Shown here: piece by piece, positions 3,278 through 26,571 of the stretch | Layout: each line of letters opens with the position of its first letter | Position numbering within the stretch: the first letter of the stretch is position 1 | Assembly (NCBI GenBank): GCA_014360495.1 | Contig: JACIXR010000006.1 | Coordinates: forward strand, 124,001-188,000 | Source of the DNA: a bacterium | Lineage (GTDB): Bacteria > Armatimonadota > JACIXR01 | DNA: 64,000 nt | Direction of reading: 5' to 3' | Translations under genes and position numbers: made by a program | The notes under the pieces: model-generated | What the model saw: only the letters and a program-made list of their open reading frames with translations | What the model was told of the DNA's origin: nothing | The model's database searches: none

Positions 3278-3354
3278 AGGTAGATGAAAGCTGAGCGAAA
3301 AGGGCAAGGGTGTAATTTCCTCAAGTAATTAAGAGGAGATAGCCGAACAAAAGC

Positions 3355-3386
3355 GGGGGCGGGATGGCGTCAGCCATCCCGCCCCC
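3355..3386. other. Perfect 14-bp GC-rich inverted repeat
   Basis: Two 14-base arms (3355-3368 and 3373-3386) pair perfectly around a GTCA loop. This is 78 bases past the arabinofuranosidase stop, so it may terminate that transcript. However, the + strand continues with an A-rich tract rather than T residues, so it is not a textbook intrinsic terminator. The rest of the gap from 3278 to 3629 holds only the decayed CRISPR repeat at 3491-3520. Confidence 0.5.
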
Positions 3387-3490
3387 AAATAAAAAGGAGG
3401 TGGTTTTGGAGGGCCCCCACCACCCCAGTAATTCTATTTTAATCACCAAACTTCATATTGTCCAATTGGCACAATCAAAACCCCATCAAT

Positions 3491-3520
3491 AATCCAATCC
3501 CTCATAGGTAGGCTTCAAAC
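3491..3520 (-). repeat. Stranded, decayed CRISPR-1 repeat
   Basis: These 30 bases match the CRISPR-1 repeat at 26 of 30 positions, including a perfect run through TAGGTAGGCTTCAAAC. The mismatches lie at repeat positions 1, 2, 4 and 13. It is 3.35 kb left of the first repeat of CRISPR-1, on the side away from the leader, where old repeats decay. The AT-rich island starts immediately to its right. Confidence 0.8.
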
Positions 3521-3629
3521 GTTTAAAATTAGAAGATATTAACAAAAAATTTTGATATTCCAATAAAAAAGAGAAAAAAACAAGGAAGCAAAAATAATAT
3601 TTTAGACGATTTATTAAAAAGGTTAAAAT

Positions 3630-4153
3630 ATGAAAGCTAAATATTTTGAAGAAAAAGATTTTATTAAATTAAATAATAATTATTGGGAGATTTTAAAGAT
3701 AGAACATTCTCATCTTGGAAGAGGAAGAGCAAATTTAACATTTATTTTGAAAAACTTAGAAAATGGTTCGGTATTGACGAAAAATTTTAAACCTGATGAG
3801 GAAATTGAAGAAATAGATATTGAAAAGAGAAAAATCAAATATTTATTTATGAAAAATAATGAAGTTTATTTTTTAGATGAAGATGGAAAAAATTTAAACT
3901 CGATACTCAAAACTTAGGAAATAAAATTAATTTTTTGAAACAGGATCTTGATATCAAAGGAATTTTTGTTGATGATGAGCTAATAGGAGTTGAATTACCA
4001 ATAAAAGCTGTTTATGAAGTTGTATCAGCACCTCCAAATGTAAAAGGAAATTCAGAAAAAACAAATTCTAAAATTGTTACAATAGAAACAGGCGCACAAA
4101 TATCAGTTCCATTATTTATTAATGTTGGTGATAAAATAAGGTGTGTTAGTTAA
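3630..4153 (+). pseudogene. efp: Elongation factor P, frameshifted, foreign low-GC copy
   Basis: The first frame (3630-3917) encodes the KOW-like domain I: HSHLGRGRANLTFILKNLEN and FKPDEEIEEIDIEKRKIKYL align with EF-P. After a one-base shift at the A6 run near 3890 the second frame continues FKLDTQNLGNKINFLKQ and then DELIGVELPIKAVYEVV and ETGAQISVPLFINVGDKIR, the OB domains II and III. EF-P rescues ribosomes stalled at proline stretches. The tip residue that is Lys in E. coli is Arg here (Arg31). The gene ends without the usual last residues. Composition marks it as foreign, and it is unlikely to be the cell's only efp. The shift in a homopolymer could be a sequencing error. Confidence 0.8.
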
Positions 4154-4182
4154 TGTAAAAGAAAAATTCCAAAGGTTAGTGA

Positions 4183-5156
4183 AAAAGGGTTTCCGAGATA
4201 AATTTAAGCGAGAACAAGATACATTTTTATGAGTTTGGTAGGCTAAAAGATAGTTTTAAAATAGCATATCAATCAAAAGAAGGAGTTTGGTATCAAACCC
4301 CTACAGGATATTTTAGGATAGGAATAAAAACGAAGAAACATTTATCTTCAATATTTCCGGTTTATATGGATTATGCAGTTCAATTTTATGAAGATTTTTT
4401 ATCCACGGAATACCATATTATGAAAATGGGCAAAAAGTAAGTTCTCAATTTTCTGGAGGATGCATCAGGTTAGAAGATAATGATGCAAGAAGATTTTATA
4501 ATTTAGCGCAAAATGGCGATCTTGTGATAATTTTTCTAACATTAGATAATTTCGAAATAAATGATAAATTTCCTTCCCCAGTTAATAAAGATGAATATTG
4601 GATAAGACAAAGATTTAACAGTCCACTAAGATCAAGATATACAAGAAGCGCGGATAGGAAGATAGATTATATTCAACATGCTGGTATAGATTTAGCACCT
4701 AACCCAAATGCAAAAGATTTTAATGTTTACTCTATATATAACCGAAAGATTGTTAAAATTGTTAAAAATGGCGGTGATGACCATGGGTTAGGAAATCTTA
4801 TAATCATTGGACATGATATAAATAATTCAAAAATATATTCTCTTTATGCTCGTTTAAGAAAGATAAGAGATGGCTTAAAAGAGGGAGATTATATTAAGAA
4901 GGGAGAAATAATTGGAGAAATAGGTGCTACTGGTTATGGATGTAATTATTGGAGAATAGGAGAAGATGGGTGTGATAAATTAAGTAGATTAGACACATAT
5001 TTGCATTTTGAGATAAAGATTTTGTCAAAGTTAGAAAGCCCATTAGATGCTAAATGTTTTGTGAATAATAGTTTTAAAAATTGCTATGGTTATACACCAG
5101 ATAATCCAGAAAAATACGGCTACATAAACCCATTAAAATTTTTGTCATCAGAATAA
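4183..5156 (+). pseudogene. L,D-transpeptidase (YkuD) fused to M23 peptidase, frameshifted
   Basis: No start codon is visible; the reading frame opens after a TGA at 4180. It encodes INLSENKIHFYEFGRL, the usual beginning of a YkuD domain. A one-base shift in the T6 run near 4395-4400 leads into FIHGIPYYENG and the catalytic motif FSGGCIRLED (Cys codon at 4461). A LytM/M23-like domain follows, with HAGIDLA as the first zinc motif. The last motif is YLHFEI, where the usual HxH has Tyr in place of its first, catalytic His. The gene would act on peptidoglycan. It shares the AT-rich composition of the EF-P relic and probably arrived with it. Confidence 0.7.
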
Positions 5157-5400
5157 AACAAAAATCTTCTAAATTACATTAGCTTCTTCTTGTATTATTT
5201 TTAAATCTAATCTACTACCACATGATATAATCAAATATTTATTAGAAAATAAATCAATACCACATTTATATGGTAATTTTAATATTATTACAAAATGCAT
5301 ATTTATAATGTTTCAAAAAATTCTCAAATTTAAAAACTTTGCTTTTTAAAAAAATTTTTAGATAATTATAGTAGACATCTAAAAAGGAGGTGAAAAAAAA

Positions 5401-6678
5401 GTGCGAAAAGTTTTTTTGGTGGTGTTTAGTGTTAGTGTGCTCCTATTGATGGGATGTGCCAGAAGTGGAAGTGGTGGCATAATTCCTATTCCTAACCCTG
5501 TTCCTGATGAATACAGAGTAATAGTAGAGGTTACCCCCCAAGAAGTCTATGAGGGTGAGGAGGTTAGCTGTTTTGCAGATATTACCCCAGGAGATTATGG
5601 CGGAGTGATAACGTGGGAGCAAATCCCCTCTACTCCCAGCGGAATTTTTAACCCACCGACAGGGGAGACCACCAAATGGAAAGCACCAGATGTGGAAATG
5701 CGAACCGAATTTGAAATAAAAGCCTCAATAGTAGTAGGTCAAACAACCTATACTGGCAGGGCAACAGTTGTTGTCCTACCAAAAGAAGCCCCGCCGGTGT
5801 ATCCACCTCAGATTGTAATTGATTATCCCTTTGATAAGATCGTTGTAGGCAGCGAAACGATTATGACAATTCTAGGAAAACTCAAAGAAGGCAGCAATCC
5901 TATAGATAGAATCGAGGTAGAAATAACTGATGATAATGAAGTGGCAATTCTAGAAACATTTGGAAATGAAGTCATAGAAGATATAGGTGGTGGTATTAAG
6001 TGTTTCAGGTTAGATATAAAGCATTTCGGAGCTCCTGGATACAAGCAAGTCAAGGTTAGGGTAATAGATAAACAGGGAGTATTCGGAGAGTCTACTATAG
6101 AAGTCATAAACGATGATATCCTACTCGAAGAAAAGGCGTTGGAGTTTTTGAGAAAGTACAACTGCTTGTTTGATGGAGGAACCCAACGGTTCGGAAACTT
6201 GAATACCGGACCATATCACAGGCCGGTGAGGGTATATATAAACACGGTAGAGAAGTGGAAATCGTTAATCGAGCAGGGGTGCGAGTTCTGGACCAGATAT
6301 TCAGGCATTGAATTTGAGCTGTTGGTCAGCGAGGGAGAACCAGAAAAACCTGTTGTGATCATAAGCGATGAAACTACGCAGGATCTTGGCAATGTAGTTG
6401 CTATGACATATCTATACGGCCTCGATGATCACGAGACAACAACCAGCGTGATAAAACTGTATAAAGGCTTTTTAGAACTAAGCGATCCGATGAAGATAGG
6501 CATTATAGCCCATGAATTAGGACATGTCTTACTTACGTCGAAAGAAGTGACAGAATTTGGTTGTTATTTCACAATGTGGCCATATGGATGTCCTATAGAC
6601 CAACAGGTAATTCCTCCTGAAGTACAGAAAGCAATTAAGTTGTTATATACCCACGAGCCTGGCTGGATCCCTCAGTAA
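5401..6678 (+). CDS. Lipoprotein with Ig-like repeats and a C-terminal HExxH metalloprotease-like domain
   Basis: The 425-residue product starts at GTG after AAAGGAGGTG. A signal peptide ends in the lipobox LLLMGC, so the mature protein is probably lipid-anchored. Residues of about 40-130 and 135-245 look like two beta-sandwich (Ig/PKD-like) domains. The C-terminal domain contains IIAHELGHVLLTS with the zinc motif His371-Glu372-x-x-His375. The extended third-ligand pattern of metzincins (HExxHxxGxxH) is absent, so the third ligand is unclear; candidates lie in the Cys-rich tail FGCYFTMWPYGCPID. The specific family is not recognised. It has no cas-like features although it borders CRISPR-1, and a terminator follows it. 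Confidence 0.65.
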   Translation: MRKVFLVVFSVSVLLLMGCARSGSGGIIPIPNPVPDEYRVIVEVTPQEVYEGEEVSCFADITPGDYGGVITWEQIPSTPSGIFNPPTGETTKWKAPDVEMRTEFEIKASIVVGQTTYTGRATVVVLPKEAPPVYPPQIVIDYPFDKIVVGSETIMTILGKLKEGSNPIDRIEVEITDDNEVAILETFGNEVIEDIGGGIKCFRLDIKHFGAPGYKQVKVRVIDKQGVFGESTIEVINDDILLEEKALEFLRKYNCLFDGGTQRFGNLNTGPYHRPVRVYINTVEKWKSLIEQGCEFWTRYSGIEFELLVSEGEPEKPVVIISDETTQDLGNVVAMTYLYGLDDHETTTSVIKLYKGFLELSDPMKIGIIAHELGHVLLTSKEVTEFGCYFTMWPYGCPIDQQVIPPEVQKAIKLLYTHEPGWIPQ

Positions 6679-6686
6679 ATCCTAAA

Positions 6687-6720
6687 TTAAGAGGTTCCTG
6701 AAGAGGGGAACCTTATTAAT
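6687..6720 (+). terminator. Intrinsic terminator after the lipoprotein gene
   Basis: A stem AGGTTCC/GGAACCT (6692-6698 and 6707-6713) with an 8-base loop is followed by TATTAATCTTT. It begins a few bases beyond the stop codon at 6678. The weak T-tract limits confidence. Confidence 0.55.
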
Positions 6721-6869
6721 CTTTAAAACCGTTCTTTTATCAGCCTCATAGATTTTAGAGGGAATCTTGGGTGTATGTGGCGCCCCACCACCACAATTTT
6801 CCCAATTATACTTTGTAGGATTATCTTGAGTTTTTATACAACATTTAAAACTTCCTATATTAGAATCAA

Positions 6870-7961
6870 ATTTCAATCCCTTATAGGTAGGCTTCAAACG
6901 AAAGCATCCTGAGGTGGGGGTGGTAGCGGGAAGGAGTTTCAATCCCTTATAGGTAGGCTTCAAACCAGACCCTACGGTTCGGGCGGGGGTGGAATTCATT
7001 CGGTTTCAATCCCTTATAGGTAGGCTTCAAACAAGTCGGCATCCTTGAAATCTTCAAGATTGAAGCCCTGTTTCAATCCCTTATAGGTAGGCTTCAAACA
7101 TTTGGATATCCTCCGCAGGAAAACAAGGGAAGCGGGTTTCAATCCCTTATAGGTAGGCTTCAAACTCAAGCGCACCCAAGAGGTGCATCAGAATGTGCTC
7201 AAAGTTTCAATCCCTTATAGGTAGGCTTCAAACGTGGGTGGGGTGTTATGTTCGGGTCTACGACTGGCAGTTTCAATCCCTTATAGGTAGGCTTCAAACT
7301 AGAATGGTGAAGCAAAATTCCCCGCAGAGGAGAGGTTTCAATCCCTTATAGGTAGGCTTCAAACTACCCTCGGCAGCGCGTGAGTTATCATTGATTATGG
7401 GGTTTCAATCCCTTATAGGTAGGCTTCAAACGCTTTTGCGTAGTTGCCTGCGATGTCTTGAATTCTGTTTCAATCCCTTATAGGTAGGCTTCAAACAAAA
7501 ATTAAAAGAAGGGAGGTTTTGTATATGTTTCCTGTTTCAATCCCTTATAGGTAGGCTTCAAACAAAAATTAAAAGAAGGGAGGTTTTGTATATGTTTCCT
7601 GTTTCAATCCCTTATAGGTAGGCTTCAAACGTCCACTGGGTAGGGTTATCGGGTGCGTTCCTTGAGGTTTCAATCCCTTATAGGTAGGCTTCAAACTAAG
7701 CAACTGGTTCTCCATTTCCTTTTGGATACGGCGTTTCAATCCCTTATAGGTAGGCTTCAAACTCCCTCCTTCCCAATTAGAAATTGCATTGAGGTGGGGG
7801 TTTCAATCCCTTATAGGTAGGCTTCAAACTTCATAACCATCTTTATATTCTTTGTCAGCCTGGTCGTTTCAATCCCTTATAGGTAGGCTTCAAACGGAAC
7901 TTCGCCAGGTGGACAAAGCGGGTGGTTCACAGTTTCAATCCCTTATAGGTAGGCTTCAAAC
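6870..7961 (-). CRISPR. CRISPR-1: 17 repeats, distinct repeat family
   Basis: Seventeen 30-base repeats begin GTTTCAATCC and end GGCTTCAAAC on the + strand, with spacers of about 35-40 bases. Read on the - strand the repeat ends in ATTGAAAC, the normal 3' handle, so transcription runs leftward from a leader at 7962-8077. The leftmost repeat has an A at its first position, as expected at the old end. Two adjacent spacers (7497-7533 and 7564-7600) are identical. The array ends 117 bases from its own cas6. Its repeat is unrelated in sequence to the other three arrays. Confidence 0.97.
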
Positions 7962-8077: not shown

Positions 8078-8920
8078 TCAAGGATAATCGCTGAAATTGT
8101 CGTCGGTCTCCAAGGGTTTTCTCGCTACTCGCGACCGACGAAATCCCCCTTCCTCTCTCAATATCTCAAAACATCCAAATCCCTGTGAGTTCTTCGCCCC
8201 TAAACCCGCATCCCAACCAAGCTTTATCAACTCCGGCTCTCCCCTTATCTTGTATATCCCCATCCACCCCTTTATCCATGTCCCTTTGTAGTTTATTATC
8301 TTCTCGTCTCCCCTCCCCACCTTTATCGGCTCAATAATAAATTCCTCACTCCCTCTGTATTCTCCATATATAACTTTGTATTTCTTTATCAAATTCTCCT
8401 TTATTAGACGAGAAAACTCCTCCTCCCTTGGATTGTAATAGTATGTCTTCCGCCCTCCCGTGGCGGTCATAAGAGTGGAATAAACCGTCATAGGCGATAG
8501 CATCCTTATCGTCTCTTCCTCCCTTACCTGGGGCGTGAACTTGACCCCTACCCACTCTAAATACAGCTCGTTCCTAGCTAACCTCAGTGTGTGTAAACGC
8601 ACGAGCGTCTCCGCTAATCCCTCAAGCATCTCATGATAGGGTGATGAGATGACGAGATAAAGGGAGGGAGGAAAGATTAGTTTATCGCCTTCCCTCCGCG
8701 CCTTCGCTATTATGCGGGAGAAGGTGAAAAGACGAAAACAACGCTTCTCGTAGGGGAAACCCTCACTATGAAGTTTATCGGCTAATTTTGAGGGAAGATT
8801 GGCATATATGAAGGATTGAACTATGTAGTTGTAGTGAAGGGGAAGCTCCACTGACCTCTCAGATTGTAATAGTATTTCAAGACGCAAGTTGGTGGGAACA
8901 CCTCCGTTTTTTAAAACCAT
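8078..8920 (-). CDS. cas6: Cas6 endoribonuclease (CRISPR-1 associated)
   Basis: A 280-residue RAMP-fold protein that cuts pre-crRNA within repeats. It has the Cas6 N-terminal pattern LRLEILLQSERSVELPLHYN, the segment LSPMTVYSTL, and the C-terminal glycine-rich loop LGAKNSQGFGCFEI. It is transcribed towards CRISPR-1 and ends 117 bases before it, so CRISPR-1 repeats are its likely substrate. It is clearly different from the second Cas6 at 28083-28874, in line with the different repeat families. No ribosome-binding site is seen before the ATG; a TTGACA lies at 8953-8948. The C-terminal tail after the glycine loop is unusually long and charged. Confidence 0.9.
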   Translation of the reverse strand: MVLKNGGVPTNLRLEILLQSERSVELPLHYNYIVQSFIYANLPSKLADKLHSEGFPYEKRCFRLFTFSRIIAKARREGDKLIFPPSLYLVISSPYHEMLEGLAETLVRLHTLRLARNELYLEWVGVKFTPQVREEETIRMLSPMTVYSTLMTATGGRKTYYYNPREEEFSRLIKENLIKKYKVIYGEYRGSEEFIIEPIKVGRGDEKIINYKGTWIKGWMGIYKIRGEPELIKLGWDAGLGAKNSQGFGCFEILREEGGFRRSRVARKPLETDDNFSDYP

Positions 8921-12439: not shown

Positions 12440-14037
12440 ATCACCATTCCACAATGGTTCGATTGAGACGAATGATTAAGAAACAAGGATTTATACAGTT
12501 TGAATAGTTTCCATTCCACTATGGTTCGATTGAGACTGTATACTTTGGTCTTTCTCATCGGATTTCAGCAATCCATTTTCCATTCCACTATGGTTCGATT
12601 GAGACTATCAGGAAAAATCCTTATAAAATAGAGCCTTTTACTATTTCCATTCCACTATGGTTCGATTGAGACTGACAAGATGATGACAATAGCAGTTGAC
12701 AAACTTGTAATTTCCATTCCACTATGGTTCGATTGAGACACACTCAAAGGCGTCCGAGTTTCCTTACTGTCCCCTTTGTTTCCATTCCACTATGGTTCGA
12801 TTGAGACTAGCAAGAAAGAAACTTGACAAGGTTGCCAAGGCAAAATTTCCATTCCACTATGGTTCGATTGAGACACTGAAGGTTGTTGGACACACACTGG
12901 GCAGACTTGCCCGATTTCCATTCCACTATGGTTCGATTGAGACTTCTTGTTAGAAAGGCGTGCGACTATGGTCAGGAGTATATTTCCATTCCACTATGGT
13001 TCGATTGAGACAATACCATCCCGTCTGCAACGCCATCGCCCACGGGTATTTCCATTCCACTATGGTTCGATTGAGACCGATTTCCCAGGTCCTAACCTGC
13101 TCAATGTTAACCTCGTTATTTCCATTCCACTATGGTTCGATTGAGACGAGGCAGAAGAAATAAAGGGGCAAATTTATGTGAGAATTAAAGACAATTTCCA
13201 TTCCACTATGGTTCGATTGAGACTAAAGGAGGTGTTTTTGATGCGTGTAGAGTATGACAGTTTCCATTCCACTATGGTTCGATTGAGACCTCCAGATGGG
13301 TGGACTATTTTGCCTCAGCGGGAGCAGGTTTCCATTCCACTATGGTTCGATTGAGACCTCTGCCACGGGGAAAATCTAAACTCATTATGCCTAATGACGT
13401 TTCCATTCCACTATGGTTCGATTGAGACAACATTGACTTACAATGCAACAGGTTCAATACCAGCATTTCCATTCCACTATGGTTCGATTGAGACTTATGA
13501 GGCTATCCAGACTTATTTGAACACTTTATCCATTTCCATTCCACTATGGTTCGATTGAGACCAAACAAGCAAAGAAGGAGGTGAACAAGAATGACCCAAC
13601 CTCTATTTCCATTCCACTATGGTTCGATTGAGACGAGATGGAACTAAAAGGTCTCTCACGCAAGGCGTGGGATTTCCATTCCACTATGGTTCGATTGAGA
13701 CTGTGCCAGCCTGTCGGCGTCTTCTGGCGTGTATCCGAGCATCATTTCCATTCCACTATGGTTCGATTGAGACTAGAACAGGGCACCCGTCTCCTAGGAG
13801 TGTTGGTCCTATTTCCATTCCATTATGGTTCGATTGACAGATTAATTGGGAGGAGTTTCAAGAGAAGAAGCTGGAATTTCCATTCCATTATGGTTCGATT
13901 GACCTGAAGAGGGCGAGAGGCGGTATATCCAGCTATGCGAATTTCCATTCCACTATGGTTCGATTGAGACGGTTCCTTCGGCTGGTGGAAGCCGCGAACG
14001 AAGTCTGATTTCCATTCCACTATGGTCCGATTGAGAC
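12440..14037 (-). CRISPR. CRISPR-2: about 24 repeats downstream of the type III-A operon
   Basis: The 30-base repeats begin ATTTCCATTCC and end GGTTCGATTGAGAC on the + strand; on the - strand the end is GGAATGGAAAT, the crRNA-handle side. Spacers are about 35-46 bases. The leftmost repeat (12440-12469) is degenerate. Near the leader, repeats at 13811 and 13876 share CATTATGG and lack two bases (GATTGAC), and the last repeat (14008-14037) has a T-to-C change. The leader lies at right, so transcription is leftward. Confidence 0.97.
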
Positions 14038-14431
14038 CCAGTTTTCACACTGTTATTTTTATTTATTTTCAATCTTCTTTTATTAATTATATCATCAAAT
14101 ATATATTATGCAACTATTTTCTTTTAGAAATTCTTCTCTTCAATCTTTTTCCCTCTCTCCCTTTACTTTTCTCTAACTCAATTTTTCCCTATTTTCCAAA
14201 AATCTCCGATAACGCATTTTCCCTTAGGAGGTCTTTGGAAATTGATTTTTAAAAAATCCCTTTAATATTTGCATATATCAACAAGTTGAAAGACAATTAC
14301 CTAATTAAAGCTATATTTTTGTCTTATATCATTAAATATCATCAAAAATCCTCTAAAATCACAAAATTGAGGTTTACATTTTTGAAATAAAACCAAATGG
14401 TGTTACGAATTTTCTCGCGATCTTTGGAAAT
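14038..14431 (-). promoter_or_regulatory. CRISPR-2 leader (394 bp, shared with CRISPR-4)
   Basis: An AT-rich block directly follows the last repeat. It is colinear and nearly identical (three differences seen) to 31267-31660; its first 191 bases also match 22374-22564. The motif TCTTTGGAAAT occurs as a direct repeat at about 14231 and 14421. The remaining 14432-14504 leads to the end of the CARF-HEPN gene with nothing recognisable. Confidence 0.85.
14086..14113 (-). promoter_or_regulatory. CRISPR-2 pre-crRNA promoter
   Basis: On the - strand TTGCAT (14113-14108) and TATAAT (14091-14086) are separated by 16 bases. Transcription would begin about 40 bases before the first repeat. The same elements occur at equal offset in the leaders of CRISPR-3 and CRISPR-4. 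Confidence 0.75.
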
Positions 14432-14504: not shown

Positions 14505-15797
14505 TCACACACCTGCTGAGGATAAAAGCCTATTTATCTCCTCTAAACTGTTCGGCAACTGCTTCGGCTCTTTGTATCCTCCTTTCAATATCTCTTTCAA
14601 ACAGTGCTTTATAAAGCCCTCTATCCTTGCCTTGATTATCGTATCATATTCCTCCTTTTTAATGCTCCTGAATCCGTGGGCGAGAATGCTCTGATTTCGC
14701 CACCTCAACGCATCCTTCAAATCATCCTCGCTTCCCTTGAAAAACTTTCCTACCTCATCACCTAACTCACAGAGCAACTCGTAATCCTCCACCAATCCGA
14801 GCTTTATCTTCCCGTCCTTTCTCTTTTTCTCATATGTTTCCTTCAATTTTTTTGGAATTTTCTCTATATCCACATCCCAAGCTTTTATCTCATGACACAG
14901 CAACAACCTAAGCTGAGCAAGCGCCTCCATAGCCCTGTAAAGCCTCGCAGTTGCATCATCAAATCTTCCCCTCACCGCACAGCGCTCCGCGTTCAAAAGC
15001 AAATCCTGAACAATAGCATATTGGGAATGCTTGTCCTTTGAATAGATGGTGATTTCCCTTTCCTCAACTTCCTTCTCGAAATCCTTCTCAAGCATCATCC
15101 TATCTGCAGCTACCCTATCCCAGAAGGAAACATAATCATTCCAAAACGCCTTCTTAAAGGGCTCAATACGTATAATAGCATTTATAGAATCATAAGCATC
15201 CCAGAGCCTAAACGCATTGATTATTCTCCGTTTCTTCTTTAAATCCTCTCGCAAATCAGTGGGAAAATGATAATTTACGAGGGCGGAACTAATGTTCTCC
15301 TCGGCGCTCGTATAATGGTAATATTTAAGAAGGGAATCAACTAGCGAGAGCAATTCCTCATAGTAAGGGAAGGAAAGATGGATTTTGCAAGTTGTTTCGC
15401 CTTCTTTTACCGCTACCAGGTTTCTTCTAATCCCCGTCGTCAAAAAAATTCCTAAATTCAAATGGGTGGCAACCCAGAAAAGAGAGGCGGACATCGTCTT
15501 CGTCCCTCCTGTGTAATCCACTACTATATCTGCTCCCGGTTTATCCCTTTTCAAATCTTCAATCTTGTTGAGCATCCTGCTTATACAACTCTCGGGGTCA
15601 TCTGGTTTGACCATTAGTATTTCGTGCTTGATTTCCCCCGTTTTACTTAAAATAGAGGGCAGGGTAGTATCAGAGCCTTGTGTTTGTCCATCAGCCTCAG
15701 TGCAGATGAACAAAACGAAATCGGGCTTTATCCTGTTAATGGCAGTGACCAAGGGTTCTGGGCTTCCGCCAACCGTCAAAACCAAAATCTTTTCCAT
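14505..15797 (-). CDS. csm6: CARF-HEPN CRISPR effector, Csm6-like (Cas02710/TIGR02710 type)
   Basis: A 430-residue protein that probably acts as a cyclic-oligoadenylate-activated RNase. The N-terminal CARF-like domain shows MEKILVLTVGGSPEPLVTAI and DYTGGTKTMSASLFWVATHL, the signature of the TIGR02710 family. The C-terminal half is helical and contains ALRWRNQSILAHGF with Arg-x6-His, the catalytic HEPN motif. It is the last gene of the III-A operon, starting 3 bases beyond csm5, so Cas10 would make its activator. It may be a Csm6 relative rather than a true orthologue. Confidence 0.85.
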   Translation of the reverse strand: MEKILVLTVGGSPEPLVTAINRIKPDFVLFICTEADGQTQGSDTTLPSILSKTGEIKHEILMVKPDDPESCISRMLNKIEDLKRDKPGADIVVDYTGGTKTMSASLFWVATHLNLGIFLTTGIRRNLVAVKEGETTCKIHLSFPYYEELLSLVDSLLKYYHYTSAEENISSALVNYHFPTDLREDLKKKRRIINAFRLWDAYDSINAIIRIEPFKKAFWNDYVSFWDRVAADRMMLEKDFEKEVEEREITIYSKDKHSQYAIVQDLLLNAERCAVRGRFDDATARLYRAMEALAQLRLLLCHEIKAWDVDIEKIPKKLKETYEKKRKDGKIKLGLVEDYELLCELGDEVGKFFKGSEDDLKDALRWRNQSILAHGFRSIKKEEYDTIIKARIEGFIKHCLKEILKGGYKEPKQLPNSLEEINRLLSSAGV

Positions 15798-15800
15798 TGT

Positions 15801-16901
15801 CTATCTCACTTCCTGCAAAAGCACCCAGCCGAACGGAGTATAAGTATATCTTTCTTTTTCTTTTCTCTTCAAGAACCTTCTCGTCATAGGAAACCTTTCC
15901 CTATGGCTCCTTTTGAAGAAATGTTGCCTTATATCTTCCCTTAAATCTTCTGGGAGAGCCAACCATATCGTCGTGGAGGGCAAGCCTCCACCCCATCCTA
16001 TCCTCAATAAATAACCCTTTCCCTTCGTATCCTTCAAAAGCCATTCATAGAAACCCTTTGAAACTTTCTCTCCCTCTTGCAATTCCGCCTCCGCAACCTT
16101 GCGATAGAAGGCGTCAACCTTTGAGAGGAAATCCTCAAAGCTATTGAACAAAGGATTTCCCGCCCTTTTGAATAGCTCAAAAAGCGATTCATCAAATGAG
16201 ATATTAAGCTTCGTCGCCTGCATCTTTCTCACGAATTCAAGGTAAGTAGATATCTTAGGGCGAGGCTTCCCCCTCGCGAGCGTCTCCTCTTCTCCCACAC
16301 ATAGAGAATCCCTTTCCCAAGGTTCCGCATCGCTCACTTTTATTACCCTTAAAATATCCGTATTGGGTGACCTCTGCTTGTTCTCCAAGCGATAATCTTC
16401 AAATATATCCTTATCCAATTCGTTATCCATCTCTTTTGCTTTTTTCCTTTCCTCCTTTAATGCTGACCGCACCTTCCACAACAAATCACTGTTTCTCACC
16501 ACAGCATCATACCACAACGAGGTTCTCATTGCTCCCTTTATAGCTGTTCCCGGTATAAACGGTCTCTGATAGGCATCCCTCGTGAAGGGACGCATCTGCC
16601 TCCCCGCCGGAAGATGACAGACGAGCTCACAGGAATATAGGGCAATCCTCTCTATAAGGGGAGGAGAAAGAAGCCCTTTGTGGGAAAGATAATTTGTTAG
16701 GGAAAAGCCAGGCTGTTCAAATCCTTTTAGGAAATCAGGCAAAAGCCCCTTTTCCTGCAAGAACTTACCCAACTCCCCCTCCCTAATGACGAACAATTTC
16801 CCATCGTGAATTATATAATCAAAGGGGAAGAGCGCCTGAAACCTCCCGCCGATATGGATTGGCGACAAAGGCAATAATTTAAATTTATGCACCCTGATCA
16901 T
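15801..16901 (-). CDS. csm5: Csm5, type III-A RAMP protein
   Basis: A 366-residue RAMP that caps the 3' end of the Csm complex on the crRNA. It begins with KFKLLPLSPIHIGG and contains the hallmark YQRPFIPGTAIKGAMRTSLW near residue 112, plus a C-terminal glycine-rich segment LLRIGWGGGL. Its ATG overlaps the csm4 stop by 4 bases. The segment CHLPAGRQM just before the hallmark is encoded by a short inverted repeat (about 16592-16616) and looks inserted compared with usual Csm5. Confidence 0.92.
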   Translation of the reverse strand: MIRVHKFKLLPLSPIHIGGRFQALFPFDYIIHDGKLFVIREGELGKFLQEKGLLPDFLKGFEQPGFSLTNYLSHKGLLSPPLIERIALYSCELVCHLPAGRQMRPFTRDAYQRPFIPGTAIKGAMRTSLWYDAVVRNSDLLWKVRSALKEERKKAKEMDNELDKDIFEDYRLENKQRSPNTDILRVIKVSDAEPWERDSLCVGEEETLARGKPRPKISTYLEFVRKMQATKLNISFDESLFELFKRAGNPLFNSFEDFLSKVDAFYRKVAEAELQEGEKVSKGFYEWLLKDTKGKGYLLRIGWGGGLPSTTIWLALPEDLREDIRQHFFKRSHRERFPMTRRFLKRKEKERYTYTPFGWVLLQEVR

Positions 16902-17806
16902 CTCATTATCACCCCCACGGGGAAAGCAAATGCATAGCGGTAGACTTTGTGAGAAAATCCGTTCGGCGTCAAATCAACCAATTGCCCTCTAATTGGCTTG
17001 TAGAAAACCGAGCCCTCGCTCAACATCCAAATCCTTTTCCTCCTTCCCTGCCTTCTCTCAAATATTGAAGATGTCCATCCGCCCCGCAGGGATAGATTAT
17101 ATCTACAATTAGCGAGGTCTATTTCCTCGCTCGGTGCGGGAACAACGGGGCTGAGGGTGAGGATGGCGGATGAATCGGGAGGTGGGAATAGGCTTTTCTC
17201 CTCAATTTCCACTTTGAAGTAGCCATAGCCAAGGGAACGCTCCCCGCCAATTCCCATATCTCCCAAGAGCTGAAGGGCGCCCTTGAATTTCTCCAGCATC
17301 TCCTCAGCGTGGAGGCGAAGGAGGAAGAAGAGCCCGCTTCCCTCTGGGAAGAAAAGGGCGGAGCGATGGTAAATCTGCGAGCTCATGTTTAACCTATCCA
17401 GCACCACGCTCGGCAGAACCTCAACCTCTGGCTCAAATTTCTCAAATGGGTAGGAGATTTCTTCCCCTTTTATCCATTGTGTAAATGTTTGCAAGGGGAT
17501 GAATTTGCGTTTCTTCAACTCTTTTCTGAACTTTTCTTGGATTCTTGGCGTGGTGAGGGGAGGTGGGAAGAAGAGGATGTCTTTGTTAAATGGGAAAGCG
17601 GAGGAGATGAGGAACGGTGGGGAGGAGAGGAAAGAATTTAAGAGGGATTCAAGCTGGTCCTTACCGAAGAGGGCGCCATATGCGTTGCAGAAGGCGGAGA
17701 ACAACAGGTCGGCAGGAACATAGGATTGGGTTGCCTCCAATCCTATCCCTGGCTCGCCTATATGGAAGGGGGAAATCGGCTTGAGCTTAACGAGATATTC
17801 TTTCAT
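16898..17806 (-). CDS. csm4: Csm4, type III-A RAMP protein
   Basis: A 302-residue RAMP that binds the 5' handle of the crRNA next to Cas10. It has KLKPISPFHIGEPGIGLE at the N-terminus, YVPADLLFSAFCNAY near residue 30 and the glycine-rich motif MGIGGERSLGYGYFKVE. The start overlaps csm3 by 20 bases and the end overlaps csm5 by 4, so the genes are translationally coupled. Confidence 0.92.
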   Translation of the reverse strand: MKEYLVKLKPISPFHIGEPGIGLEATQSYVPADLLFSAFCNAYGALFGKDQLESLLNSFLSSPPFLISSAFPFNKDILFFPPPLTTPRIQEKFRKELKKRKFIPLQTFTQWIKGEEISYPFEKFEPEVEVLPSVVLDRLNMSSQIYHRSALFFPEGSGLFFLLRLHAEEMLEKFKGALQLLGDMGIGGERSLGYGYFKVEIEEKSLFPPPDSSAILTLSPVVPAPSEEIDLANCRYNLSLRGGWTSSIFERRQGRRKRIWMLSEGSVFYKPIRGQLVDLTPNGFSHKVYRYAFAFPVGVIMR

Positions 17807-18596
17807 TATCAGAACTGGCTATAAAATCGGCTATCTCCTGAAGCTTAGAAAGCGCTCCATCTATATCTTCCACTTGCCATTGCTTTTTGAACTCCTCATT
17901 CCCCGTGGCATACCAATCTCCCTTGCGACATTCAATCGTTGAGAGCTTAAATTTGACTTTTCCATAGCCACGGGAGCCGTGTCCACCGAGATAATCGTCC
18001 TCCAAGAGGCGCATAGCGGTGAAGAGATTTTTCAAATCCTCCTTCAAGTCTTCCTTTTTCTCAATGGTATAGATGATTTCAAGCTTGAAGAAGGAGCCGG
18101 CGGGAACCCTCTCAATTTGGCGAGGATTGGCGGCGGAAGTTATCCTATCAATGGCGTTCTCAAATTTCCATTCGGTAAAGCGAAGCCCCGTTTCTATTTC
18201 CTCCAATTTCTCCTTGCTCTCATCTGTGAGGAAAAGGTCTCGCACGGCGAGGCGTGAGGGGATATTTTCTCCTTCATCCTTCATGGGAGTGGAGCCGAAG
18301 AGACGACATATCTCGCAGTTCTTATCTGAGCAGGCGTGTATCATCACTGGTTCATCATTAGGTCCAATATTTCTATTTATTGGCTTCTTCATTTTCCTCT
18401 CCAAGAGGGAACGCATCTTTCCCTTGAGGGAGCTTCCCGGGACATAGGGGAATTCACTGATGGGGTCGCGCACAACTGGCAAATCTACCCCGCCTATTTT
18501 CATAGCCTCCCTCCTCGCCCCTATGTGAAGCCCGGTTAAACATTTCATCTTACCTTCAATGACAACCTTGCCGAGAATCGGACGCTCTCCCTGCAT
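17787..18596 (-). CDS. csm3: Csm3, backbone RAMP and target-RNA nuclease
   Basis: A 269-residue RAMP forming the Csm filament backbone, which cuts target RNA every six bases. It carries CLTGLHIGARREAMKIGG followed by VDLPVVRDP, with Asp38 at the position of the known catalytic Asp, and FPYVPGSSLKGKMRSLLER. The Cys-rich segment CSDKNCEICRLFG is typical, and GGHGSRGYGKVKF is the C-terminal glycine loop. RNase activity is therefore expected. It starts 2 bases past csm2. Confidence 0.95.
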   Translation of the reverse strand: MQGERPILGKVVIEGKMKCLTGLHIGARREAMKIGGVDLPVVRDPISEFPYVPGSSLKGKMRSLLERKMKKPINRNIGPNDEPVMIHACSDKNCEICRLFGSTPMKDEGENIPSRLAVRDLFLTDESKEKLEEIETGLRFTEWKFENAIDRITSAANPRQIERVPAGSFFKLEIIYTIEKKEDLKEDLKNLFTAMRLLEDDYLGGHGSRGYGKVKFKLSTIECRKGDWYATGNEEFKKQWQVEDIDGALSKLQEIADFIASSDNERISR

Positions 18597-18598
18597 AG

Positions 18599-19030
18599 CT
18601 ACTCTTCACCTCCATGAAACTTATGGTAAGCAACAAGCCCCTCAATGAATTGAGAGAGCTTTTTAAAATCATCCAAATCCTGAACCTTGTCAATCGCCCT
18701 ACTTAGCACTTCATGAAGAGGCTTGAGTTTATTCTGCCTCCCTGCTGCATATGCAAGGTGAATCTTCAATAGCTGAACTTCCTGACTTATATCTATACTC
18801 CCCTTACGAGTCCTGACTGCTGACCTAATCTTTTCAAAGGCATCCAAAACCCTTCTCAGCTGGGACATCCTCACTTTTTTCGCTAAAACCTCGCCTATTT
18901 TGTTAACATGGTCCAGCAACTCCTTGTTTTGGGCTTCCTTCAAACTTGGAAGACGATGGAGGAATTCCTTACAGCTCTTATAAACTCTATGGTCTTTTTG
19001 CTGGGCTTCTTCCCTTCTCTCAGAATTCAT
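18599..19030 (-). CDS. csm2: Csm2, small subunit of the Csm complex
   Basis: A 143-residue, almost fully helical and basic protein of Csm2 size and position between cas10 and csm3. Csm2 lines the crRNA-target duplex. The C-terminal part (LLKIHLAYAAGRQNKLKPLH) resembles the conserved Csm2 segment KLAYAAGR. It starts immediately at the cas10 stop. Confidence 0.88.
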   Translation of the reverse strand: MNSERREEAQQKDHRVYKSCKEFLHRLPSLKEAQNKELLDHVNKIGEVLAKKVRMSQLRRVLDAFEKIRSAVRTRKGSIDISQEVQLLKIHLAYAAGRQNKLKPLHEVLSRAIDKVQDLDDFKKLSQFIEGLVAYHKFHGGEE

Positions 19031-21361
19031 TTAACTTGCACCTCCTTTTTCTCTTATCAATAAGTCTATCCAATAAACTAAATAAGGGAAGAAGGGCATG
19101 TTTTCCGCCTCCAACAAAGTGGAGACAGTGAATTTATGCCATTTATCTTCCAAATCGTTTTTCTTAAAGCTCTCCCTTATCCTTCCAACTATATAGACGA
19201 GATAAATATAGGGATATATGCTCTTTTCCTTTTCCCAGCTCCTGCTAATTTCCAAAAGCCTATATAGGAAGGAGCGGGGAAGCACGAGCTCATAATGACC
19301 ATCTTTTAATTCAGCGAAGTCTCTGAGAAATTCCTCCTTCCATCCCTTTATCTTAAAGCAATCCTCCCAAAGGGGCTCATTCTCTCTTTTCTGGAAGAAT
19401 GAGAACCTATTTCTTCCCGAATCCTTCGCCGATTCCTCCATATCCCCGCTCATCTTCGCAATTTGATAAAGTGGCTCCTTGGGGTCGCAAACGAGATAGC
19501 CTGCGGAAATTGTGAATGAGGGGTTTTGAGTGAAAGAGGAGAACTTTTCTTGAATTTCAAATGCGCTCTCTAAAACATCGTTCCAAGCTCCAACTATGAA
19601 CGCATCATCCCCGCCAGAATAAACAACCGCTACTTCCTTTCCCTTTAATATATCGTCAATATATGATTTAAAGAAAATGGTGAGAAAGCGGGAAAGCGTG
19701 GCAACTCGGGAGAAGGAATAGCGATTCTCTGGAATTCCAGCGCCGAAAATCATTCCCAAATGGTCAACATCTAACCTGAGTACGCCAATCCTTGAGGCAC
19801 CAATGCCTGCCTGAGCGAATCCATCAAAATCCCTAACATCGCCATTCTCGTCCTTACTGGCGTAACGCGCGAGGGTAAGGAAATAGGTATGGGGGTGGAA
19901 GGGCAAATTGTCCGGCTTGGCGTTTATCAAGAATATCCTATCGGCTCGAGAAAGATAGGAATTCAACTCTCTTCTATCAATCAACTTATAGCGGGCATCG
20001 GGTAAAGGGATATCGCCCTGAGGATGGGCGACGAAGCAGGGTTCTTTTATTTTAGGGATAGCGCCGCCAAGTTGGAAGAGGGTATAGCAGAGGGGACAGA
20101 GATGGACTCCTTCCTCTATTTCCTTGTATATCTCGGATGGAGCTTTACACACATCGCATTCGTAAAAGGTGCCCTCGCAAGCCTCACATTTACCTTTATT
20201 GACCTCAATGGGCTTAAAGAGCTCCTCTTTCAAATTGAAGAATTTACGGTTTTTATCCATTTCCAAGCGCGAGAAGAGCTCCTTTCTTTTTTGGAGCAAA
20301 GGTTGGCTATTCAAGTCCTGAGGGGAGAGGGGAACCCATTGGAGGGCTAAATAGAGCCTTCCAGCGAACATGTCCCACAGCCATTTGTTGAGGGAATTCC
20401 TAAGCTTTGAGAGGAGATTTTCCGCATCGGGTTTATTGGGGAGGAGGATTTCAAATTGAGCGCCTCCGCAGAAGATGAGGTTAGATGGGGGAAGGTTGAA
20501 CTGTTCCAAGAGCAGGGCGGCGATGTGGTGGGAGAGGAGCTCAATGTAGAGGGAGCGAGCCCTGAGGCTTTTGAGAGCTCCTTTTGATGTGATTGTATAG
20601 ATGAACTTTTGGACGCCGGATAAATCGCCTCTTAGGTAGAGGAAGCCATTATCTTGGGAGTCGTAGAGGGAGAGGGCGAGGGCGCAGGTGAGTTTAAGGT
20701 GGTCGTAGAGGGAGATATCGGGCTCATTTTCTGGGTTGATTTCGTCCTGGGACAATACAATTATCGTTTCTGAGGGGATGAAGGTTAGGAGTTCCTCTAA
20801 GAGGGATAGGAGAGAGGGGATGGAGGTGATGGTGGGGATTCTTGAATTGAGTTTATTGAGGATTAGCTTATATTGAGATGTTTCAGCGGAAGCTGCTTCT
20901 TTGTTTGTTTTAGGGTAGAGGAAAGAAGGTGTGAGGGGTTGGACAGACCAGTAGGAGGGGTTGGGAGATTGTTTGTCTTGGAGGTGGATTTCCGAGAGGA
21001 TGGAGCGGAGTGGAGTTTTCCTTTCCCATTTTCCTTGTTCACCAGCGGAGATGTCCTCTTTTTCTAGGCGTTCTTGGGCGCTCAGTTGGTCGGCTTGGCG
21101 GAGGAGGGAGAGGGTTTTCTCCAGGGCTGGGTAGGGGGAGGAGGAGTGGTGGTTATAGATAAGTCTTTCAACATAATTTTTAAGATTAGGGGGTAAGAGA
21201 CTTGGGTGGAAGTTGGTGGCGGAGAGCCAATCAGCGCCCCACTCTTCGTGTTTTTTAGCAGATGGTTCATCGTTAGCTCTTTGGACTAACTTACCGATGT
21301 CATGTAATAGGGAGGCGAGGGTGAGGGCAAGTCTTTCCTCCTCAGGCGATAAACTATTCAC
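19031..21361 (-). CDS. cas10: Cas10/Csm1, type III-A signature protein
   Basis: The 776-residue large subunit. The HD nuclease motif is SLLHDIGKL (His20-Asp21). A zinc-finger region has CEACEGTFYECDVC and CPLC. The palm domain carries VVYSGGDDAFIVG with GGDD at residues 583-586, so cyclic-oligoadenylate synthesis is expected. I chose the GTG at 21361 because GGAGGTG lies 5 bases before it; the longer ATG-initiated form lacks such a site and would begin inside the promoter region. It heads the III-A operon, 97 bases left of the CRISPR-3 old end. Confidence 0.95.
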   Translation of the reverse strand: MNSLSPEEERLALTLASLLHDIGKLVQRANDEPSAKKHEEWGADWLSATNFHPSLLPPNLKNYVERLIYNHHSSSPYPALEKTLSLLRQADQLSAQERLEKEDISAGEQGKWERKTPLRSILSEIHLQDKQSPNPSYWSVQPLTPSFLYPKTNKEAASAETSQYKLILNKLNSRIPTITSIPSLLSLLEELLTFIPSETIIVLSQDEINPENEPDISLYDHLKLTCALALSLYDSQDNGFLYLRGDLSGVQKFIYTITSKGALKSLRARSLYIELLSHHIAALLLEQFNLPPSNLIFCGGAQFEILLPNKPDAENLLSKLRNSLNKWLWDMFAGRLYLALQWVPLSPQDLNSQPLLQKRKELFSRLEMDKNRKFFNLKEELFKPIEVNKGKCEACEGTFYECDVCKAPSEIYKEIEEGVHLCPLCYTLFQLGGAIPKIKEPCFVAHPQGDIPLPDARYKLIDRRELNSYLSRADRIFLINAKPDNLPFHPHTYFLTLARYASKDENGDVRDFDGFAQAGIGASRIGVLRLDVDHLGMIFGAGIPENRYSFSRVATLSRFLTIFFKSYIDDILKGKEVAVVYSGGDDAFIVGAWNDVLESAFEIQEKFSSFTQNPSFTISAGYLVCDPKEPLYQIAKMSGDMEESAKDSGRNRFSFFQKRENEPLWEDCFKIKGWKEEFLRDFAELKDGHYELVLPRSFLYRLLEISRSWEKEKSIYPYIYLVYIVGRIRESFKKNDLEDKWHKFTVSTLLEAENMPFFPYLVYWIDLLIREKGGAS

Positions 21362-21388
21362 ACATTCACCTCCATAGATATTTTTTAG

Positions 21389-21418
21389 ATTATACCAAAA
21401 ACACAAAAAGTAGTGCAA
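21389..21418 (-). promoter_or_regulatory. Promoter of the type III-A operon
   Basis: On the - strand TTGCAC (21418-21413) and TATAAT (21394-21389) are separated by 18 bases. The start site would fall near 21382, giving a 20-base leader with GGAGGTG before the GTG of cas10. Confidence 0.7.
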
Positions 21419-21457
21419 CTTTTTTAAAACTTTACTCTCCAAAATTGTTCAAAAGAG

Positions 21458-22373
21458 CTTACCACTCCACTATGGTTCGATTGAGACGGCTGGATATCCG
21501 CTTTGATACTTCTCGCTCGTGAGATTTCCATTCCACTATGGTTCGATTGAGACGGGCAAAGGGTAAGGGTGGATGGGGTGAGAATTTACAAAGCAATCGG
21601 ATTTCCATTCCACTATGGTTCGATTGAGACTCTTCATTGCTACCATCGGTTCAGGCACCACGGTGGAATTTCCATTCCACTATGGTTCGATTGAGACTGG
21701 ACAAAGCGGAGAATGGGGTGGTATTTCCTATACCCCTATTTCCATTCCACTATGGTTCGATTGAGACCCTGGAGTACCAACTTGACTTGGTAGCAAGACG
21801 ATAATTTCCATTCCACTATGGTTCGATTGAGACCCTCCCCAGGTTGTGGAAATAATATTTTGGGATAAATTTCCATTCCACTATGGTTCGATTGAGACAC
21901 ACAGAGCCGTCTGCCGTCCCCGAGTGGTATAAGACATTTCCATTCCACTATGGTTCGATTGAGACAAGCCGTTTGCGAAGCTGATTCAGTTATTCGCAGA
22001 CAAAATTTCCATTCCACTATGGTTCGATTGAGACCGTTTCTTTCACATAATTTCGTCATTCTGGTGAGCTCATTTCCATTCCACTATGGTTCGATTGAGA
22101 CTTAAACTTAATTGGATTTATTTTAGTATTTGGGGCAATGGTAGAATTTCCATTCCACTATGGTTCGATTGAGACCGTGGATGCGACTCCGAACAGCCAT
22201 CCGGGGGGCTATTTCCATTCCACTATGGTTCGATTGAGACTTTTGTAAATTGCCAATTTTAGAATTTTTGATTATAAATTTCCATTCCACTATGGTTCGA
22301 TTGAGACTATACAGTTGGGTATGACGTTGGCGATGAGGCTACGATTTCCATTCCACTATGGTTCGATTGAGAC
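21458..22373 (-). CRISPR. CRISPR-3: 14 repeats between the III-A and I-B operons
   Basis: Repeats are the same 30-base unit as CRISPR-2 and CRISPR-4. The leftmost copy (21458-21487) is degenerate in its first half, marking the old end; the rest are uniform. Spacers are about 36-47 bases. The leader is at the right. Its transcript runs towards the cas10 promoter on the same strand. Confidence 0.97.
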
Positions 22374-22564
22374 CCAGTTTTCACACTGTTATTTTTATTT
22401 ATTTTCAATCTTCTTTTATTAATTATATCATCAAATATATATTATGCAACTATTTTCTTTTACAAATTCTTTTCTTCAATCTTTTTCCCTCTCTCCCTTT
22501 ACTTTTCTCTAACTCAATTTCTCCCTATTTTCCAAAAATCTCCGATAACGCATTTTCCCTTAGG
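22374..22564 (-). promoter_or_regulatory. CRISPR-3 leader (191 bp, truncated relative to the others)
   Basis: Nearly identical to the first 191 bases of the CRISPR-2 and CRISPR-4 leaders. The promoter elements recur at 22449-22444 (TTGCAT) and 22427-22422 (TATAAT) on the - strand. Homology stops at CCCTTAGG, where the cas4 relic begins, whereas the other leaders continue for another 200 bases. Confidence 0.85.
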
Positions 22565-22695
22565 TGAGTTAAGGTATGTTCCATCCTTATCCCCTTGCTG
22601 TATAGCCATAGTTTACGAGGGCATATCAATAAATAATTTACCATCAACCCACCTATCCTCAGTTCCTCTAATTCCTCTTGTGTTAATCCTTTCAA
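22565..22695 (-). pseudogene. cas4: cas4, N-terminal stub only
   Basis: Directly after cas3 an open frame starts at a TTG that overlaps the cas3 TGA (TTGA). It reads LKGLTQEELEELRIGGLMV, then NYLLICPRKLWLYSKGIRME and HT. This is the beginning of Cas4, including the first iron-sulphur-cluster Cys in LLICPRKLWLYSKGI. After about 40 codons it runs into the CRISPR-3 leader, so the RecB-like nuclease domain and the three C-terminal Cys are absent. In type I-B operons cas4 is normally followed by cas1 and cas2; neither is found. The stub is 131 bases long. Confidence 0.8.
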
Positions 22696-24938: not shown

Positions 24939-25628
24939 TTATCGGGATTGGATGGCTACTCTATTGTATAGGGGGACGCCTTCGTTATTGAAGAAATAGA
25001 GCTCCAAAGGGAAGTTGAGGGTGAAAGGGAAGCGTTGGGGAAGGGAGAAGATGGGAGGTTTTTCTTTCTCCACATAGGTCAAAGGGTAGGCTATATATTC
25101 GCATCCCTCATATATGCCAAAAATCAAGCCCCAAACTTCTCTTCCTTCCCCCTTTTTCACTTCTCCCTCCCATACCACATCCACGATAACCATATCGTCG
25201 GATTGACCAAGGTAGAGGGGGCGGAATGGATTGCGGAGGGAGGAGAGCAAATCCCGAAGGAAGTCTTCTTTTTCGCTCGCTATGTAGAGCATATAAGAGG
25301 GGCGGACGAGGAAGTAGCGATACATAGGGGAGGAGGGGAAGGAGGTTATCCTTCCCGCTCTCCTTTCCTCTTTTTTCAATTTGAGGAGCTTAGCCAACTC
25401 TCTTTGGCATTTGTCCAATTCCAGTGGTCTTATGTTCATCAGGAGGAGCTTTTCCGCTTCCTCGGCGAATTGGGGATACTCCGTCAGGTAGATTCCCTTG
25501 GCGTTACCCAGCATTCCTATGATGGTGGTGAAAGGAGGAATTGGGTGGGTGAGGACGAGGGATGTGGATTTTGGATGGCGGAAGCAGGCGAAATAGGGAA
25601 GGGTTAGCTCTACCTTAGCGCCCAGCAT
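24939..25628 (-). CDS. cas5: Cas5, type I-B Cascade subunit
   Basis: A 229-residue RAMP that caps the crRNA 5' handle. The N-terminus (ELTLPYFACFRHPKSTSLVL, then THPIPPFTTIIGMLGNAKGI) is the Cas5 signature; the final segment LYNRVAIQSR is also typical. It lies between cas7 and cas3 with one-base gaps. Confidence 0.9.
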   Translation of the reverse strand: MLGAKVELTLPYFACFRHPKSTSLVLTHPIPPFTTIIGMLGNAKGIYLTEYPQFAEEAEKLLLMNIRPLELDKCQRELAKLLKLKKEERRAGRITSFPSSPMYRYFLVRPSYMLYIASEKEDFLRDLLSSLRNPFRPLYLGQSDDMVIVDVVWEGEVKKGEGREVWGLIFGIYEGCEYIAYPLTYVEKEKPPIFSLPQRFPFTLNFPLELYFFNNEGVPLYNRVAIQSR

Positions 25629-25629
25629 C

Positions 25630-26571
25630 CTAGAGAATGAAATTCTTCAGGCTTTCCAAAGCTTCCCTTGGTGTATCCAGTAGCTCAACGCCTTCTTCTT
25701 TAAGGAGCTCTTTTACCTCGTCTCCGTTGGTTATTACACCGTCAAGAAGACCGGCGAAAATCTTCAGACTTTCCTTCTTGACTTCTCTGATTATCTGCTG
25801 GAGCACAGTGAGGTTTAGTTTGCAGTCATTCTCAAGGGAGAGTGCTTTCTGCAGGCGATGGGAGTAGTTGTTTTGAGCGGCGGCAAGTAGGATATCGGGA
25901 GTGAAGTCGGTGAGGAGGCGAGCCTGCTTTGAATAATCGGAGAAATCCGCGATTGCTGAAAGCAAGAGGCTTAGGCGTTGTTTCCTTTCCTCCTCTGGGA
26001 CGACTTCCTTGAATTCAATTCTATTTATGTCGTCTTCTCCTCTTTTCAGTTCCTCTATTCTACCCAGCCTGAGCAAATCAACGCAGACGCCTGCCTTATA
26101 GATGTTGACGGCAAGTTCAACATTAACGATGTCCCCCTCAAGTTGACCTTCTTGCAGTCTATGCCTGCGGGTGAGGAAATCAACAACTGCGTTTTCATCA
26201 TAGGGGAGGAGACCCATTGCTGGGGATACTTTGACGGGTGAAAGGCGAATGTCCGCTCCTCCTCTCTTGCCTGCTTCTCTTCTTATAACCCCCATATAGC
26301 CGAAGAGGTCGCAGAGGATGCAATTTCTTACATCTCTGCAGGTTTCCCCTATATCGTTGGGCGTGCAAACGGAGGAAGAAGGGACTTCTCGGCGAATTGC
26401 TTCCTTCAGATAGAAGCGCATCGCCTGACCGCTGACATAGGGATACTCTTTTCCTTGCCAGCGATATCTCTTGATGTCAATCAGCTGGCTCCCGCCCTCG
26501 CCGGAGTTGAGGTTGGTCAAGCCGGTCTTGGAGAGCCACACCAAACTTACCGCTTTCAAATCATTTCTCAT
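25630..26571 (-). CDS. cas7: Cas7, type I-B backbone subunit (Cst2/DevR type)
   Basis: A 313-residue RAMP that polymerises along the crRNA. The motif TGLTNLNSGEGGSQLIDIKR and the following YPYVSGQAMRFYLKEAIRRE are characteristic of the Cst2/DevR branch of Cas7. A Cys-rich segment (CRDVRNCILCDLFGYMG) and the DIRLSPVKVSPAMGL loop are also present. It overlaps cas8 by 11 bases. Confidence 0.92.
   Translation of the reverse strand: MRNDLKAVSLVWLSKTGLTNLNSGEGGSQLIDIKRYRWQGKEYPYVSGQAMRFYLKEAIRREVPSSSVCTPNDIGETCRDVRNCILCDLFGYMGVIRREAGKRGGADIRLSPVKVSPAMGLLPYDENAVVDFLTRRHRLQEGQLEGDIVNVELAVNIYKAGVCVDLLRLGRIEELKRGEDDINRIEFKEVVPEEERKQRLSLLLSAIADFSDYSKQARLLTDFTPDILLAAAQNNYSHRLQKALSLENDCKLNLTVLQQIIREVKKESLKIFAGLLDGVITNGDEVKELLKEEGVELLDTPREALESLKNFIL

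Follow-up and report, generated by a model that had tools for sequence, protein, structure and literature searches.

A patchwork of Parcubacteria-like gene pieces in the tail of a CRISPR array

We analyzed a 64,000-nucleotide stretch (the window, G000:C6:124001-188000) of a bacterial genome of the phylum Armatimonadota (G000; 2.55 Mb, 18 contigs, 97% complete). In this window, an array of clustered regularly interspaced short palindromic repeats (CRISPR), named CRISPR-1, is separated by 3,349 bp from its last recognizable repeat, which stands alone. Most probably, foreign DNA was genuinely inserted here, at the old end of CRISPR-1, and has resided there since; the 3,349 bp would be a patchwork mended in after the array tail had broken.

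The stranded repeat and its array

The stranded repeat (3491-3520) shares 26 of 30 bases with the CRISPR-1 repeat on the same strand, a match for which a uniform model gives a chance of about 3e-7 across 128,000 sites. A search pattern that admitted the variant base gave 18 matches genome-wide, all of them on this contig, namely the 17 repeats of the array and the stranded one; the reversed pattern, used as a control, gave 0 matches in the whole genome. The stranded repeat is the sole CRISPR-1-type site of the genome outside the array. In an earlier sequence-only reading of this DNA, it had been described as a lone decayed repeat 3.35 kb past the old array end, and both statements hold: the slot between it and the next repeat (6870-6899) measures 3,349 bp. 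It has the sequence and the orientation of the array, but not the spacing of one repeat-spacer unit, as a canonical spacer would have a length of about 36 bp. This repeat type is present on either side of the slot and absent from the rest of the genome, so the two flanks are parts of a single array.

The left side was identified as the trailer end from the sense of the repeat, the location of cas6 to the right and the degenerate repeats on the left, in agreement with the previously proposed site of entry. The complement of the CRISPR-1 repeat ends with ATTGAAAC, which we take to be the usual handle of a CRISPR RNA. Further decayed repeats were not found in 3278-3490, 3521-3700 or 6600-6869, and no 9-mer of the repeat was shared with the slot. 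A tail duplication was rejected as the source of the stranded repeat, as the alignment of 3331-3490 with 6680-6869 was no better than chance (p 0.07).

Origin, joints and decay of the insert

The guanine-plus-cytosine (GC) content of positions 3521-5390 is 26%, versus a host mean of 45.9%. Composition was determined in 3,303 segments of 1.5 kb from a sample of 878,455 host bases, which covers 34% of the genome and contains the window. Only 7 of these segments had a GC content below 35%, and every one was located at the CRISPR-1 tail, so the strongly AT-rich segment noted earlier was confirmed. Foreign origin is, however, concluded from homology to Parcubacteria and not from composition alone. 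Three neighboring gene pieces, i.e. the 3'-terminal part of a gene for a zinc-ribbon protein, a pseudogene for elongation factor P (EF-P), and a pseudogene for an L,D-transpeptidase with an M23 peptidase domain, have their nearest relatives in one group of AT-rich Parcubacteria and not in the host phylum. Judged by this homology, 3521-5156 is foreign. The sequence-only reading was thus right about foreign DNA and about broken genes, but had counted two damaged genes instead of three.

For the EF-P piece, Pfam EFP_N (7.5e-12) and Elong-fact-P_C (4e-15) were detected in two frames, and it also matched NCBIfam efp. Its best relative has 62% amino acid identity (G264), and EF-P was present in 11 of 12 genomes of the donor group. 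The host's own EF-P, the single match in the genome over the cut-off, is encoded on another contig and is far from the EF-P of the insert in the tree. In the phylogeny, which had been proposed as a check, this piece falls among the AT-rich Parcubacteria group. The transpeptidase/M23 piece matched Pfam M23 (2.3e-12) and YkuD (4.2e-7). With a 56-residue transpeptidase query, 30 loci in named genomes were retrieved, 20 of which belonged to Parcubacteria, Wolfebacteria, Nomurabacteria or other Patescibacteria groups and 8 to unnamed bacteria; the remaining two were one Spirochaetia bin and one weak Sphingomonas match. Around one such relative, 34 of 200 genomes matched the piece at E <=1e-20, the best with 65% amino acid identity (G191). 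The six best transpeptidase relatives are encoded in DNA of 25-31% GC and have <=74% nucleotide identity to the insert. The M23 part had no match in viral contigs. The trees placed EF-P and transpeptidase in the same genome group with moderate support (90/89 and 80/70).

The order of the pieces was compared with that in the donors. There, the zinc-ribbon gene ends over the start of EF-P, and in the insert it is likewise located just upstream of EF-P. A 40-residue read-through of the insert aligned residues 2 to 39 with the donor zinc-ribbon gene (tblastn E 1e-5, L118/L099), and residue 2 corresponds to codon 3522-3524. Therefore, the foreign sequence starts at most 1-2 nt from the last base of the repeat, and the donor gene is cut there; under random placement, the probability of a joint within 1 nt of the repeat edge is about 0.09. 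In one donor locus (L122), the bases beside the left joint resemble the end of the repeat over six bases, and a small microhomology is possible. The left edge of the slot is thus exact to 1-2 nt, but the right edge could only be bracketed, as the neighboring lipoprotein gene has no relatives; it lies somewhere in 6679-6869 or at 6869. Within the insert, EF-P without its last residues is fused at about 4141 to the transpeptidase without its N-terminal membrane part. The two genes were apart in every relative examined: EF-P was absent from all 10 transpeptidase loci fetched from donors, and where both were found on one contig, the distance between them was about 21 kb (G175), 35 kb (G204) or 11 kb (G104). 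Loci L036 and L065 are from the same genome and do not overlap.

The lipoprotein gene had been described as ordinary in composition. This was true for its GC content (0.426, near-ordinary for the host), but not for its tetranucleotides, as the score from a host versus a Parcubacteria model was below those of all 611 host segments. Homologues were not found in the other 290 genomes of the phylum (the one hit among 291 was the gene itself), nor in viral contigs, plasmids, Pfam or NCBIfam. The PDB search yielded nothing below E 0.3. The structure prediction was unusable (mean pLDDT, the predicted local distance difference test, of 39). The protein contains an HExxH motif. Because its k-mers are unlike the host and it is absent from the other 290 genomes, the lipoprotein gene is probably foreign too. 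A minus-strand frame in 5157-5390 had no homologue that could be found.

The frames of the gene pieces are broken near 3544, 3890, 4141, 4180 and 4395. In addition, of 114 columns without variation in ten relatives, 13 are broken in the transpeptidase/M23 piece, and the lost M23 residues include the conserved histidines of LYAHL and HLHFE. In the same test, nine relatives broke 1-8 columns each (36/1,062 pooled), and the divergent relative L075, which was left out of the pool, broke 17 of 131. Unique changes at second codon positions amounted to 18/205 for the insert versus 39/1,687 pooled over eight relatives (p ~1e-5, with rows that are not independent), and third-position changes were also raised (0.24 versus 0.05-0.20). 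The transpeptidase/M23 piece hence combines broken frames with relaxed constraint, as expected for a pseudogene, and its missense decay indicates that it decayed while resident, which argues against contamination or a chimera. A codon model for the genome-wide frameshift rate lacked sensitivity (at the middle setting, it detected 14 of 33 simulated breaks), so only the content of long open reading frames (ORFs) was used; host ORFs of >=400 codons comprise 84,037 codons within 478 kb. The features of the region are compiled in the table.

Table. Features of the CRISPR-1 tail and its surroundings (window coordinates)
Feature	Position	Strand	Remarks
Degenerate, stranded CRISPR-1 repeat	3491..3520		26/30; last recognizable repeat, trailer end
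Zinc-ribbon protein gene, 3' end	3521..3640	+	frame broken at A run near 3544; begins within 1-2 nt of repeat edge
EF-P pseudogene	3630..4141	+	frame broken near 3890; C-terminal end absent
L,D-transpeptidase (YkuD) and M23 peptidase pseudogene	4142..5156	+	without N-terminal membrane/signal part; frame broken near 4180 and 4395
Non-coding, very AT-rich stretch	5157..5390		~18% GC; contains second internal joint
Lipoprotein gene, intact, 425 aa	5401..6678	+	orphan; k-mers atypical of host
Non-coding stretch, lipoprotein gene to array	6679..6869		GC 0.35; no decayed repeat
CRISPR-1 array	6870..7961	- (transcription direction inferred)	17 repeats; one edge base altered in first repeat
cas6	8078..8920	-	Pfam Cas6 C-terminal 3.3e-39; TIGR01877 4.1e-42

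Related genomes and other arrays of the window

The CRISPR-1 repeat was searched in 31 genomes and was present in G000, in the same-genus genome G002 and in G005, which belongs to another family; it was absent from the same-genus genome G001. In G002 (locus L117), the array has 17 perfect repeats, and beyond them, at its trailer end, come in turn a 375-bp gap, a repeat with three mismatches, a 447-bp gap, and a repeat with five mismatches. In the 375-bp gap, one frame is open from repeat to repeat, representing part of a gene that lacks a start and a stop of its own; this reading was absent from the other 150 genomes searched and had no match in viral contigs. The 447-bp gap (L117 1523-1969) is filled by several units resembling repetitive extragenic palindromic (REP) elements with the core GCGAAGCCGAAGAATC; the 478 kb of host DNA examined for them contained none. 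The G002 inserts are unrelated to the host insert, yet they occupy the same end of the cognate array. Because of this case, the earlier suggestion that loss of function at an array tail costs little is plausible. In G005, two arrays had no stranded repeat in the stretches fetched. The host insert was also looked for as native sequence in relatives, and it was not found there.

The effectors encoded in the window are of type III-A (14505-21442) and type I-B (22692-28874). No cas1 gene was present among the 20 window ORFs scanned, and a genome-wide search for cas1 was not made. In a comparison of 81 host spacers with the insert and the fetched donor loci, the longest exact donor match had 17 bases, was AT-rich, and was judged to be due to chance. 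The tail of the third array contains a decayed repeat at 29026 and in-register remnants at 29091 (18/30) and 29158 (19/30), before the array at 29227.

Several additional observations were made. Two neighboring CRISPR-1 spacers (7497-7533 and 7564-7600) are identical, and G002 likewise repeats a neighboring spacer near L117 190-290. The right ends of two arrays share 222 bp with 98% identity (14007-14228 and 22343-22564), probably a duplicated leader. Spacers at 12740 and 31197, in different arrays, have an identical 21-base stretch, as if one target had been taken with an offset. At 1-1263, to the left of an arabinofuranosidase-like gene, a zinc-dependent dehydrogenase-like gene is spread over three frames, together with a 144-residue reading without family match; these are more broken genes near the array tail. 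Directly after the arabinofuranosidase-like gene, at 3354-3388, there is a perfect GC-rich hairpin, the core of which occurs once in the 478 kb checked.

Explanations and precedents

In the explanation that we favor, the array tail broke, and free or taken-up DNA fragments were joined in during repair. At least two pieces would stem from an AT-rich Parcubacterium, an ultra-small bacterium (the zinc-ribbon end with EF-P, and the transpeptidase/M23 gene without its N-terminus), and the lipoprotein gene would be a piece from a third source. The repair route would have been Ku-independent, because no Ku was found in the host (the control was detected in 1 of 14 genomes). Subsequently, the insert would have decayed, as neither its genes nor the oldest repeats were presumably under much selection, and the leader-side repeats and spacers would have stayed functional. 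The insert would be cargo without a part in CRISPR function, and the intact lipoprotein gene may be retained for its own use. The case points to the unused end of such an immune memory as a possible graveyard for captured foreign genes.

Several results weigh against this explanation. Four of the frame breaks are at A/T runs of 5-6, as would result from sequencing errors, and nonsense changes are absent (0). The EF-P piece has frame breaks only and no missense decay (0/16 invariant columns). The tree forks that hold the island have only the moderate support given above, and the foreignness of the lipoprotein gene is deduced from its k-mers and its absence elsewhere. No empty-site allele was found, as the gene to the left of the array has other neighbors in G001 and G002, and the insert is known from the assembled sequence of one genome of the species. 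Furthermore, the tail of the third array has undergone ordinary point decay, so array tails need not attract inserts.

A different origin would be a giant spacer, about 90-fold over-length, formed when long foreign DNA was attached to a repeat edge by the adaptation machinery, as in ordinary spacer capture, or through cleavage and repair of the array linked to Cas1. This idea fits with a left joint that lies in the middle of a donor gene and no more than 1-2 nt from the repeat, and with the 375-bp fragment in G002 without start or stop that also fills one repeat-to-repeat slot; moreover, a review connects Cas1-facilitated cleavage and repair with changes of arrays (PMC4390879, section 4.5). 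However, a single placed edge is weak support given the random expectation, three unlike pieces in one slot fit poorly to a single capture, the site is the old and not the leader end, and the limited cas1 scan was negative. We therefore regard a giant spacer as unlikely. Equally doubtful is its extension to the whole genus, namely that array tails capture long foreign DNA at repeat edges via adaptation-linked breakage and repair, so that arrays would contain whole gene fragments of neighbors alongside spacers, among them those of an ultra-small bacterium that possibly dwells on the host. An assembly or library chimera, in which the host contig took in Parcubacteria reads from the same sample, would explain the unrelated pieces of the mosaic and the A/T-run frame breaks reminiscent of noisy reads, and the source genome is an 18-contig assembly with 97% completeness. 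Yet a chimera would have had to return to its own locus, as one repeat type is present on both flanks. The lost M23 histidines and relaxed second positions are unlike the DNA of a living Parcubacterium, the long host ORFs show that indel errors are not general, and comparable gaps exist in the separately assembled sister genome. Thus, a chimera also has a small probability, slightly below that of a giant spacer.

Integration of a mobile element or genomic island by its own enzyme would account for the foreign composition and the cargo genes, but no integrase or transposase was detected among the ORFs of the slot (Pfam/NCBIfam) and the gene pieces are truncated at the joints, making this very improbable. 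The least credible alternative is that the gap is old array with repeats decayed past recognition. Such decay does occur in the third array tail (29026, 29091, 29158), but the slot consists of homologous gene sequence without a trace of a repeat, and for 3521-5156 this reading is refuted by the gene homology.

A patchwork insertion at the array tail would document physically the passage of Parcubacteria DNA into the chromosome of a bacterium of another phylum, where it persisted for long enough that it decayed. To our knowledge, gene flow from Parcubacteria to other phyla is seldom documented. The old end of a CRISPR array would be a landing site, with an analogous, unrelated case in a genome of the same genus. 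If repeat edges are preferred joints, adaptation-linked array breakage with capture of long DNA becomes testable by surveying existing genomes. Within the literature searches made, no kilobase-scale, decaying patchwork of cellular Parcubacteria genes at a bacterial array tail was found in print.

Long foreign DNA between array repeats as such is already known from one published precedent that we found. In Sulfolobus solfataricus, an 899-bp fragment of a pNOB8-like plasmid lies between two repeats of CRISPR locus F, and the review that describes it suggests that Cas1-linked cleavage and repair may alter arrays (PMC4390879, section 4.5). The present case is similar in that long foreign DNA is found between two repeats of an array, but differs from the 899 bp of plasmid DNA in that it comprises 3,349 bp, is a mosaic with cellular Parcubacteria genes, lies at the trailer end, is decaying, and has a bacterial host. 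The insertion of ISC1359 in CRISPR spacers, reported in the same section (PMC4390879), also interrupts an array with non-spacer DNA; it is located inside a spacer, whereas the host insert has no transposase and its joint is at a repeat edge. Patescibacterial genes are known to cross phylum borders; in the passages considered, a study of gene transfer involving Patescibacteria mostly counts transfers into them, as gene pairs (PMC12455944), whereas here Patescibacteria would be the donor and another phylum the recipient. Lastly, as in the point decay of the third array, the oldest repeats of CRISPR-1 have lost their match, but the last repeat of CRISPR-1 has additionally been severed by foreign DNA.

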